Assembly (NCBI GenBank): GCA_021773635.1
Contig: JAJFJV010000006.1
Location: forward strand, 62,001-126,000
DNA: 64,000 nt
Reading direction: 5' to 3'
Source of the DNA: Gammaproteobacteria bacterium
GTDB lineage: Bacteria; Pseudomonadota; Gammaproteobacteria; HK1
Below the pieces are notes generated by a model. It searched no databases and was not told the origin of the DNA. It was given only the letters and a program-made list of their open reading frames with translations. A program made the position numbers and the translations under genes. Positions 20,590 to 23,918 of the stretch are shown in pieces (position 1 is the stretch's first letter; each line of letters begins with the position of its first letter).

Positions 20590-21936
20590 TCACTGGTCCT
20601 CGGCGAGCTTTTTCTCCAGGTAATGAATGCTCTGTCCGCCCTCGACGAAGGCGGCATCGGCCATCAGATCCTGGTGCAGGGGAATATTCGTTTTAATACC
20701 ATCGATGACCATTTCCCCGAGGGCCGTACGCATGCGCGCAATGGCCGCATCCCGACTGTCACCCCAGGTGATCAGCTTACCGATCATGGAATCGTAATAA
20801 GGGGAGACGGTGTAACCCTGATAAATGTGGCTATCGAGCCGCACCCCGGGGCCCCCCGGAGGATGGTAACGCTGGATGCGCCCCGGGCAGGGCATGAAGG
20901 TACGGGCATCCTCGGCGTTGATCCGGCACTCGATGGCGTGCCCCCGCAGTTCGATATCTTCCTGGGTAAAGGGCAAGGGCTCGCCGGCGGCTACCAATAG
21001 CTGGGCCTTGACCAGATCGGTACCGGTAACCATTTCCGTGATCGTGTGCTCCACCTGCAGCCGGGTGTTCATTTCAATGAAATAGAAGCCACCGTCCTCG
21101 TAAAGGAACTCGAAGGTGCCCGCGCCCCGATAGCCGATCTGATGGCAGGCATTCACACACTGCGCACCCAGTCGATTACGCATCTCGGGGGTGATGCCCG
21201 GTGCCGGAGACTCCTCGATCACCTTCTGGTGGCGACGCTGCATGGAACAGTCGCGCTCCCCCAGATGCACGGCATTACCGTGCTCATCGGCGCACACCTG
21301 GACCTCCACATGGCGGGGATTTTGGAGAAATTTCTCCAAGTAAACCATATCATTACCAAAACTCGCACCCGCCTCGGCCCGGGTCAGGGAGATGGAATCC
21401 AGCAGTGTTGCTTCGCTGTGCACCACGCGCATCCCGCGGCCACCGCCACCGCCCGAGGCCTTGATAATCACCGGATAACCAATCTCTGCGGCAAGACGCC
21501 GATTCTCATCCTCGTCGTCATCCAGCGGCCCGTCTGAGCCTGGCACACAGGGCACACCCGCCGCCTGCATGAGCCGAATCGCCGAGACCTTGTCGCCAAT
21601 CTGACGAATGGTCTCCGGGCGCGGACCGATAAAGACGAAGCCGCTTTGCTCCACCCGCTCGGCAAAGTCGGCATTCTCGGACAGGAAGCCATAACCGGGA
21701 TGGATGGCCCCGGCATCGGTCACCTCCGCTGCGCTGAGAACCGCGGGAATGCTGAGATAGCTCAAACCGGGGGTGGGCGGGCCAATACACACCGACTCAT
21801 CGGCAAGGCGAACGTGCTTGAGATCACGATCCGCGGTGGAATGAATCGCCACCGTTTTCAGACCCAGTTCGCGACACGCCCGCAAGATCCTCAGGGCGAT
21901 CTCGCCACGGTTGGCAATAACGACTTTTTCAAACAT
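20590..21936 (-). CDS. accC: Acetyl-CoA carboxylase, biotin carboxylase subunit
   Basis: AccC carboxylates the biotin on AccB using ATP and bicarbonate, the first committed step of fatty acid synthesis. The 448-residue protein has [17 protein letters not shown] at the N-terminus, the glycine-rich ATP-grasp loop [14 protein letters not shown] (about 160), [15 protein letters not shown] (about 232) and the catalytic segment [15 protein letters not shown] (about 288). The usual VEHPVTEM reads VEHTITEM here, a mild change. It is cotranscribed with accB, 33 bases upstream. Confidence 0.97.
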
Positions 21937-21969: not shown

Positions 21970-22419
21970 TTATTCGATCACCATTAGCGGCTCTCCGTAC
22001 TCCACCGCCTCGCCGTTTTCCACCAGGACGCGGGTCACTACACCCGTGGCATCGGCCTCAATCTGGTTGAGAATCTTCATCGCCTCAATGATGCACACGG
22101 TGTCCCCGACCTCGACCCGCTGCCCCACCTGCACAAAGGGATCCGCCCCCGGTGCAGAGGCGCTGTAGAAGGTACCCACCATGGGGGAATTTACCGCATG
22201 GCCCTGGACTTCCTCCGCTGCAGCGGGAGGTGCGCTGGCCTCGACAGCGGGTATGGATGCCGGTACCGCCTCCACCGCGACGGCCGATGGGGCCATGGCC
22301 GGCGCCACGGCGCCGAGGCGGGAAATGCGTACCGACTCTTCGCCTTCACAGATCTCCAGCTCGGCAACATTCGAGCTCTCCACCAGTTCGATCAGCTTTT
22401 TAAGCTTGCGTATATCCAT
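21970..22419 (-). CDS. accB: Acetyl-CoA carboxylase, biotin carboxyl carrier protein
   Basis: AccB carries biotin between AccC and the carboxyltransferase. The 149-residue protein begins [16 protein letters not shown], has an Ala/Pro-rich linker in the middle (residues about 38-70), and a biotinyl domain with the thumb region [13 protein letters not shown] and the attachment site [13 protein letters not shown]. The modified lysine is that of EAMK. It heads the accB-accC pair and lies 81 bases downstream of aroQ. Confidence 0.96.
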
Positions 22420-22500: not shown

Positions 22501-22944
22501 TTATTTTTTATTCAGATACTGCAGTGCCGCCTGCAAGGCCAGCTCGTAACCCTGTGGTCCAAGGCCCACGATCACTCCCGCCGCGATATCCGAGAAATAG
22601 GATTTGCGACGAAAGGACTCGCGCTGATAGACATTAGACAGATGGATCTCGACAAAGGGTATTTCCACCGCCAGCAGGGCGTCTCGCAAGGCGATGCTGG
22701 TATGGGTAAAGGCCGCCGGATTAATGAGGATGAAATCCACTTCCTCGCTGACCGCTTGCTGAACACGGTCGATAAGAGCCGCCTCGGCATTACTCTGGAA
22801 ACAATCCAGACCATGTCCTGAATCTGCGGCCATCCTGGTGAGACGGCCCTCGATAGCACGCAACCCTTCGGCGCCATAAAGCTCCGGCTCACGATGCCCG
22901 AGAAGATTGAGATTGGGTCCGTTGAGCAGGAGGATTTTAGCCAT
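22501..22944 (-). CDS. aroQ: 3-dehydroquinate dehydratase, type II
   Basis: AroQ performs the third step of the shikimate pathway as a dodecamer. The 147-residue protein starts [20 protein letters not shown] and has the active-site tyrosine in EPELYG, the flexible-loop arginine region, the catalytic histidine in NPAAFTHTS and EIHLSNVY. The common NPGAFTH reads NPAAFTH. It sits in the conserved order cutA-dsbD-aroQ-accB, here with a shortened dsbD upstream. Confidence 0.96.
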
Positions 22945-23028: not shown

Positions 23029-23562
23029 TTATGGGGAAGACTTCGGAAAGGGCAGTTCGAGGGTTTTAGTGATGGGCGGATAACAAAGTCCGGCATCGGC
23101 ACAGCCCTGATAGCGGACCCGTAGCGTGAGCTGACCGGGGCCATCGGCGCTGCGTTGTATGGGAAGCTCCGCCCAGGCCTGATCGTAATACACCTCGGTA
23201 CGCCCCAGATAGGCGTCTTCCTTGGGCTGGCCCGCAGGCAGATGCAGGGCACCGGTAGCCCGCACATCCGGGCCCACCACTTCAATGGCAATACGCTCAC
23301 GATAGAGATAGTAATGTTCTGCAATTCGCCAGCTCGCCACCACCTTGCCCGGCACCTGCTCCACGCTCAACACAAAGGCGACATCCGGATGCAGAAACTC
23401 CGGGCCAGCCCCACCCAAGCCCAAAATCTGCGCAACTCCACCTTTATCGTTCGCTGGTGAAATGGCGGGAGACGCACCTGTTTCGGCCAGCACTGGTCCA
23501 ACCGATATGGTGGCAGTCAATGCCCACACCACGCCAGCCATCCTTAGAAATATGTGCTTCAA
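23029..23562 (-). CDS. Stand-alone DsbD N-terminal (nDsbD) domain protein
   Basis: DsbD passes electrons from cytoplasmic thioredoxin to periplasmic partners through three domains. This 177-residue protein is only the first, with an N-terminal signal peptide (KHIFLRMAGVVWALTATISV) and the immunoglobulin-like nDsbD fold: FLHPDVAFVLSV, RIAEHYYLYRERI and the redox pair in YQGCADAGLCYPP (Cys154 and Cys160). The transmembrane and thioredoxin-like domains are absent; the frame ends at a clean stop, and the 84 bases to aroQ hold no remnant. Start is a TTG overlapping the cutA stop, which gives a complete signal peptide; an ATG at 23541 is the alternative. Confidence 0.85.
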   Translation of the reverse strand: MKHIFLRMAGVVWALTATISVGPVLAETGASPAISPANDKGGVAQILGLGGAGPEFLHPDVAFVLSVEQVPGKVVASWRIAEHYYLYRERIAIEVVGPDVRATGALHLPAGQPKEDAYLGRTEVYYDQAWAELPIQRSADGPGQLTLRVRYQGCADAGLCYPPITKTLELPFPKSSP

Positions 23563-23918
23563 GAGCCTAACCCCACTTCCCCGGAAACCCAGTTGAGATA
23601 AGCCGCAAATCCGGCCACCACCGGCAGGCAAATAATCTCCGGTAACTCGTCCGGATGCAGCTTGCGGACAGCAGACTCCAGCTCGGAATAACGCTCGATC
23701 CGGGTCTTGGCCAGCAACAGCCACTCGTGGCTTGTTTCCACCTTCCCCTGCCAGCGATATACCGACTCCACCCCGGGCAGAATGCTGACACAGGCCGCAA
23801 GACGCTCCTCTATGAGGACCCTTGCCATACCGCGGGCAGCATTCTCCTCGGGACAACTGGAGAGCATCACTACGTAAGCGCCAGCTTCTGTCCCGACTTC
23901 GCCACAATTATCTGCCAT
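23559..23918 (-). CDS. cutA: Divalent-cation tolerance protein CutA
   Basis: CutA is a small trimeric protein linked to copper and divalent-cation tolerance, with an uncertain molecular role. The 119-residue product shows the family pattern SSCPEENAARGMARVLIEERLAACV near the N-terminus, then SVYRWQGKVE, LLAKT and the C-terminal LPVVAGFAAYLNWV. The ATG at 23918 was preferred to a TTG nine codons earlier because homology begins just after it. The stop overlaps the start of the nDsbD gene by four bases. It is divergent from fxsA. Confidence 0.93.
   Translation of the reverse strand: MADNCGEVGTEAGAYVVMLSSCPEENAARGMARVLIEERLAACVSILPGVESVYRWQGKVETSHEWLLLAKTRIERYSELESAVRKLHPDELPEIICLPVVAGFAAYLNWVSGEVGLGS

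Follow-up and report, generated by a model that had tools for sequence, protein, structure and literature searches.

A free-standing N-terminal domain of DsbD (nDsbD) is encoded between cutA and aroQ in this genome, and it is under purifying selection. The gene product is a probably secreted, soluble nDsbD, by its sequence the client-binding outer domain of DsbD. The gene content makes it fairly likely that this solo nDsbD would be a working adapter, fed ultimately by CcdA. The genome is here called G000 and its genus g1, which also includes the congeners G001 and G002; G-numbers stand for genomes and L-numbers for loci. The window is the whole stretch of 64,000 nucleotides that was analysed, and the coordinates in Table 1 refer to it.

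Table 1. Solo nDsbD gene, features of its product and neighbouring genes, in window coordinates.
Feature	Position	Strand	Basis or remark
Solo nDsbD gene, 177 aa	23029..23562	minus	TTG start (23562), TGA stop (23029); PF11412 108 bits
DsbD_N (nDsbD, immunoglobulin-like) domain	23056..23400	minus	Pfam, AlphaFold2 and Foldseek
Redox cysteine C154 codon (E. coli C103)	23101..23103	minus	alignment
Redox cysteine C160 codon (E. coli C109)	23083..23085	minus	alignment
Probable signal peptide, residues 1-26	23485..23562	minus	by eye; position common to both congeners
Cap-loop region KEDAYLG, residues 114-120	23203..23223	minus	alignment; cap loop as in excerpts of PMC7347389
cutA, directly upstream of nDsbD	23559..23918	minus	stop overlaps the nDsbD TTG start
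aroQ, 84 bp downstream of the nDsbD stop	22501..22944	minus	gene order
accB, downstream of nDsbD	21970..22419	minus	gene order
accC, downstream of nDsbD	20590..21936	minus	gene order

A sequence-only reading of the window had described a solitary nDsbD between cutA and aroQ, reduced to a signal peptide and the N-terminal domain with both redox cysteines kept. Each of these statements is borne out. The neighbours are as described, and PF11412 (DsbD_N) is the sole Pfam family in the protein (108 bits against a curated cut-off of 25, E 3.8e-31, residues 55-169), which has neither the membrane domain nor the C-terminal thioredoxin domain of DsbD. The match to the NCBIfam DsbD model NF001419 (105.4 bits, residues 54-170) covers only model positions 28-138 of 574 and fails the curated cut-off of 330 bits. 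Residues 1-26 are signal-like by eye and end in VLA, followed by ET; the congeners have a comparable stretch at the same position, ending in WA or EA before the same ET. The protein contains exactly two cysteines, C154 and C160, within YQGCADAGLCYPP. They form the CysX5Cys redox pair of the canonical DsbD N-terminal domain and align with the cysteine pair in the solved E. coli nDsbD structures, numbered C103 and C109 in the part of PMC7347389 available. Both are invariant across 49 aligned DsbD_N domains, 11 solo ones included. The cap loop is recognisable, with D116 and G120 invariant in the same 49 domains. Y118 occupies the place of E. coli F70, a position held by F or Y in 53% of 134 nDsbD sequences according to the same part of PMC7347389. 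The nDsbD immunoglobulin-like fold is predicted to be present: the AlphaFold2 model has a mean pLDDT of 84.2, with blocks of 94-99 over residues 61-170, and the 18 best Foldseek matches in the PDB are all nDsbD structures of E. coli or Neisseria (TMt 0.74-0.87).

Beyond cutA lie fxsA, groES and groEL, and the order groEL-groES-fxsA-cutA-nDsbD-aroQ-accB-accC is identical in both congeners, whose nDsbD proteins are 73% and 76% identical to that of G000. A solo nDsbD is also found at the same locus in G008, a genome of the same family, so that the short form is conserved in relatives, a point that the earlier reading had left to be checked. Only 84 bp separate the nDsbD stop from the aroQ start, which is too short for the other DsbD domains. 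A downstream remnant of these domains is thereby ruled out, as the earlier reading had it.

The genome of G000 (2.55 Mb, 46 contigs, 99.6% complete) was searched for what could replace the missing parts. The solo gene is the one DsbD_N match, and no second was found in the whole genome with PF11412. The search with PF02683 gave a single match, a protein of 246 amino acids (E 1.1e-17, 64.6 bits) with no other Pfam family and with cysteines C24 and C148. On its domain content this protein is a CcdA, that is, a DsbD_TM domain alone with two membrane cysteines. The canonical DsbD membrane domain, which scores E 4.5e-71 or better with PF02683 in the family, was not found in the whole genome. Proteins that combine an N domain with membrane and thioredoxin domains in one chain are here called ScsB-like on account of this architecture. 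None is found in G000 by PF11412 and PF02683, and the same searches reject the possibility that the genome encodes a further DsbD or ScsB-like protein at another locus. The expectation that the solo domain would need a CcdA-type donor is in this way supported by gene content.

The ccdA gene is 94% identical within g1 and lies in a gene block that is conserved in all three genomes (L117:3776-10381 on contig C25 of G000; counterparts L159 and L160). The block further encodes a hydrophobic protein of 142 amino acids with no Pfam match, a response regulator, a histidine kinase, a DUF1223 protein, MsrAB and a glutaredoxin. The DUF1223 protein has a CSSC motif and MsrAB a methionine/lysine-rich N-terminal repeat, and by eye both have a signal-like N-terminus. 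The block resembles a regulated module for oxidative stress in the envelope, with CcdA feeding it.

The searches with PF11412 and PF02683 covered 17 genomes of the family. Twelve of them have a canonical DsbD membrane domain, with a best E-value per genome of 4.5e-71 to 1.0e-103, and four (G000, G001, G002 and G008) have a solo nDsbD together with CcdA-type matches only. In G008 these are two CcdAs and one further PF02683 match under the cut-off. The remaining genome, G007 (81% complete), has neither canonical DsbD nor solo nDsbD. A weak second DsbD_N match in G008 (G008:C27:43330-43647, 35 bits) lies in a frame of 867 amino acids with no PF02683 match there.

A sample of 276 genomes of the class was assessed from per-genome tables read by eye. 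DsbD_N is present in 252 genomes, 21 of which lack a PF02683 match better than 1e-40. Among these 21, the solo form is confirmed in five (the three g1 genomes, G075 and G094) and six have long frames of 658-852 amino acids (G028, G030, G041, G047, G166 and G261), the other ten being outside the frames listed (G095, G111, G150, G152, G177, G205, G217, G227, G250 and G269). Counting genomes without canonical DsbD, the solo form occurs in at least five and at most 15 of the 252. Besides the four family members, a solo nDsbD at the same locus was found in the class relatives G075 and G094, in G054 and in the genomes of L072, L088, L085 and L096 (G294-G297), which gives 11 solo genomes.

No PF02683 match in any of the 11 is better than 3.3e-23 (G054 is 81% complete; completeness is not given for G294-G297). 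Matches are of the CcdA type only in the three g1 genomes, G008 and G075. G094 combines a CcdA-type match with a split ScsB-type pair, seen at L254:3141-4939 as a DsbD_N-like piece of 193 amino acids and a membrane-thioredoxin piece of 400. The other five (G054 and G294-G297) have an ScsB-like protein that combines an N domain of its own with a membrane and a thioredoxin domain; this architecture is taken from Pfam for three and by eye for two (L258 and L260). The solo domain of these five genomes therefore need not be their only working N domain. Among the 11, only g1, G008 and G075 have no other strong N domain in the genome besides the solo one. At L116:2733-3605, in G054, the DsbD_N domain is followed by about 115 amino acids that by eye resemble the cDsbD thioredoxin domain with its cysteines replaced (WSAASK); Pfam matched the N domain alone.

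Two candidates were rejected, both from genomes in which a different contig carries the canonical DsbD membrane domain: in G258 the contig ends inside a tandem-domain gene, and in G228 the match starts at base 5 of the contig. In Candidatus Thiothrix singaporensis (L083:5884-8262) the dsbD frame is interrupted between its tandem N domains, next to unread bases, which probably reflects a fault of the assembly. L043 and L051 come from MAG records titled Klebsiella pneumoniae and Gemmataceae, and their dsbD regions fall among other gammaproteobacterial sequences on the tree; these are probably mislabelled or contaminated bins.

The phylogenetic tree of 164 nDsbD domains, built on 124 columns with a bootstrap that had not settled (0.947), served only for a rough count of solo origins. 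The 11 solo rows need at least eight changes, of which at least five are forced by well-supported branches. The domain of G008 falls together with the first member of a tandem pair in G006 (96/84), and from this grouping the solo forms of G008 and g1 may be separate events.

Two known clients of nDsbD are encoded. DsbC is present in G000 (DsbC_N 59.6 bits; NF008129 E 8.5e-52, 175.8 bits against a cut-off of 215), as is CcmG/DsbE (TIGR00385, 165.6 bits, cut-off 123). Over the 11 solo genomes, DsbC_N is above its cut-off in all except G008 (10 of 11) and CcmG/DsbE above its curated cut-off in all except G054 and G297 (9 of 11), and every genome has at least one of the two.

The CcdA of g1 is 62-63% identical to both CcdAs of G008 and 62% to the sole PF02683 protein of the distant G075. 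Identity is 31% to the CcdA of G094 and 26-29% to the CcdA-like proteins of seven full-DsbD relatives (8 of the 12 such relatives have one, that of G011 being outside the comparison). This pattern indicates that one CcdA type accompanies the solo nDsbD in g1, G008 and G075.

A candidate for a thioredoxin-fold partner in G000 is a TlpA-like protein of 212 amino acids (TlpA-212); it carries a WCGPC motif, and its N-terminal stretch is hydrophobic. Its gene overlaps ccmG by 52 bp in the longest readings of both, and counterparts 90% and 92% identical are found beside ccmG in G001 and G002. In the rest of the family its best matches are a pair of G008 proteins (51% and 53%). One is encoded directly upstream of one ccdA; the other likewise precedes a ccdA, the second of the genome, but is separated from it by a single gene. 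The full-DsbD relatives give matches of 23-38% identity, the strongest at E 7.5e-18, and the best in G075 is 36% among the five loci examined. Judged by these identities, the TlpA link appears good within the family; beyond it, the G075 match reaches only 36%. The ccdA, tlpA and nDsbD genes of G000 are at three separate places. In G008 the two clusters (L161 and L162) are similar, each with ccdA and genes named by eye as TlpA-like, DsbA-like, Rieske-like and heavy-metal ATPase, as if duplicated. Nine full-DsbD relatives (G003, G004, G005, G010, G011, G013, G014, G015 and G016) together contain 19 Redoxin matches with one in-frame TGA, possibly selenocysteine redoxins; g1 and G008 have none.

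In the four family relatives with a full dsbD at this locus (G004, G006, G011 and G014), a comparison of coordinates by hand places a Redoxin match in the interval from dsbD to aroQ. A thioredoxin-like gene adjoins the solo nDsbD in G094 and at L072, L085, L088, L096 and L116, and all six match TlpA-212. In g1, G008 and G075 there is no room for such a gene, so that both the dsbD 3' part and the neighbouring tlpA are gone; these are the same lineages that share one CcdA type.

In E. coli, electrons pass from thioredoxin to the membrane domain of DsbD, then to cDsbD, to nDsbD and finally to DsbC, DsbG and CcmG (excerpts of PMC7347389). CcdA corresponds to the membrane part alone and feeds thioredoxin-fold proteins (parts of PMC4491210 and PMC3914529). 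For G000, the reading that is fairly likely is that dsbD lost its 3' part, coding for the membrane domain and the C-terminal thioredoxin domain, and that nDsbD was retained as a soluble adapter. CcdA would take electrons from cytoplasmic thioredoxin, standing in for the lost membrane part, and pass them to a membrane-anchored thioredoxin-fold protein in the role of the lost cDsbD. This protein would reduce the solo nDsbD, which would in turn serve DsbC and perhaps CcmG. The likeliest middle piece would be TlpA-212, with its gene overlapping ccmG here and its G008 relatives encoded in both ccdA clusters. As the specific middle step it is nevertheless put forward tentatively and is somewhat doubtful. 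Katzen and Beckwith (2000) are reported to have seen electron transfer persist when the domains of DsbD were produced as separate polypeptides; if so, a three-piece scheme is plausible.

Several observations weigh against the adapter scheme, among them the separate positions of ccdA, tlpA and nDsbD in G000 and the ScsB-like proteins of five solo genomes. G008 is without DsbC_N and G075 is without a close relative of TlpA-212 among five loci, so neither the client nor the middle step is constant. Since g1 and G008 belong to one family, the CcdA and TlpA that they share may reflect common descent rather than independent pairing. According to the part of PMC7347389 consulted, nDsbD has a single legitimate reductant, cDsbD, and the reduction of nDsbD by TlpA accordingly stays an unproven proposal. 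The real partners of CcdA may be its block neighbours MsrAB and DUF1223.

This last point leads to the rival that survives best, although it too is unlikely: the solo nDsbD would be part of a CcdA-DUF1223-MsrAB branch for methionine sulfoxide repair under oxidative stress, and DsbC and CcmG would be supplied by another route. The conservation of the ccdA block, with its two-component system, DUF1223 and MsrAB, in all three g1 genomes speaks for such a branch, as does the CcdA-Etrx-MsrAB2 pathway established in pneumococcus (PMC3914529, in part). The nDsbD gene, however, lies outside the block, and the known nDsbD clients DsbC and CcmG are retained in G000. Moreover, G008 and G075 keep the solo nDsbD, and no MsrAB was seen by eye in the listed stretches around their three ccdA genes.

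Reduction of the solo nDsbD directly by CcdA, with no thioredoxin-fold middle piece, is less probable again. It would fit the finding that CcdA is the only carrier of the DsbD_TM family in G000, and also G075, where solo nDsbD and CcdA occur with no close TlpA-212 relative at the five loci. It is at odds with the DsbD membrane domain, which hands its electrons to cDsbD and not to nDsbD (PMC7347389, in the part available), and with the described CcdAs, which act through the thioredoxin-fold proteins HP0377 (PMC4491210) and Etrx1/Etrx2 (PMC3914529) as far as the excerpts of these papers go.

That the solo nDsbD is a decaying remnant without function is highly improbable. The rest of dsbD is indeed gone, and one solo copy elsewhere, that of G054 at L116, bears a cysteine-less tail domain. 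However, the Nei-Gojobori dN/dS values of nDsbD between the three g1 species are 0.149, 0.203 and 0.178 at dS 0.8-1.15, which rules out a pseudogene and supports the earlier view of a stable protein. The same three species give 0.147-0.186 for cutA, 0.105-0.138 for accB, 0.059-0.114 for aroQ and 0.041-0.067 for ccdA; with dS near 1 all these values are rough, and they indicate that nDsbD evolves like cutA and somewhat faster than accB, aroQ and ccdA. Decay also agrees poorly with the retention of both cysteines, the signal-like N-terminus and the invariant columns, with a cysteine pair that is unchanged in all the solo domains aligned, and with the number of changes that the solo form needs on the tree.

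A read or assembly error at the stop, the rest of dsbD existing in reality, could be suspected from an assembly in 46 contigs and is excluded for practical purposes, since in the separate assemblies of G001, G002 and G008 the gene is equally short and is followed directly by aroQ (within about 250 bp), and a genome 99.6% complete has no canonical PF02683 match.

Databases contain stand-alone proteins that match DsbD_N, with names such as 'DsbD domain-containing protein', and the present case is a warning for annotation that a DsbD_N match does not imply DsbD. No description of a natural stand-alone nDsbD was found in the open-access literature, as judged from titles and the starts of abstracts among the matches listed, with subscription papers mostly outside. 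Nor is one described in the portions considered of PMC4491210, PMC7347389, PMC3914529, PMC4460558 and PMC4222556. It is an almost evenly balanced question whether DsbD has been dismantled repeatedly in the Gammaproteobacteria, the client-binding domain each time being kept free and put onto a different carrier, either CcdA with a TlpA-like thioredoxin or an ScsB-like protein. If this is true, nDsbD is a portable redox adapter and such genomes hold a natural three-piece DsbD. The usual view of DsbD is of a fixed machine with three domains; natural solo nDsbDs would point to the client-recognising part as the indispensable one. They also offer a simple test of whether a wide range of clients can be supplied by CcdA and a free thioredoxin.

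In predicted fold and cysteine pair the solo nDsbD resembles the N-terminal (alpha) domain of DsbD from E. coli and Neisseria meningitidis (73.9 bits to 1l6p, TMt up to 0.87). Unlike those three-domain membrane proteins, it is free and probably secreted, in a genome where no canonical DsbD membrane domain was found. The proposed route shares with the CcdA and periplasmic thioredoxin systems (ResA or CcmG; CcdA-Etrx-MsrAB2) a carrier with two membrane cysteines that feeds a thioredoxin-fold protein (PMC4491210 and PMC3914529, in part). Those systems, in the sections of the papers available, are described with no free nDsbD beyond the thioredoxin, whereas here nDsbD is proposed as an added step. 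ScsB-like proteins carry their own N domain, so that the solo nDsbD cannot be seen simply as a part they lack; in G000, unlike ScsB, the domain is unfused, and PF11412 and PF02683 give no ScsB-like protein. Katzen et al. (2002) reportedly proposed an evolutionary domain fusion in which the joining of domains to a CcdA-like core brought DsbD new clients. The case of G000 looks like the reverse, a fusion undone with the client domain kept, and solo nDsbDs would test the domain-fusion idea in that direction.
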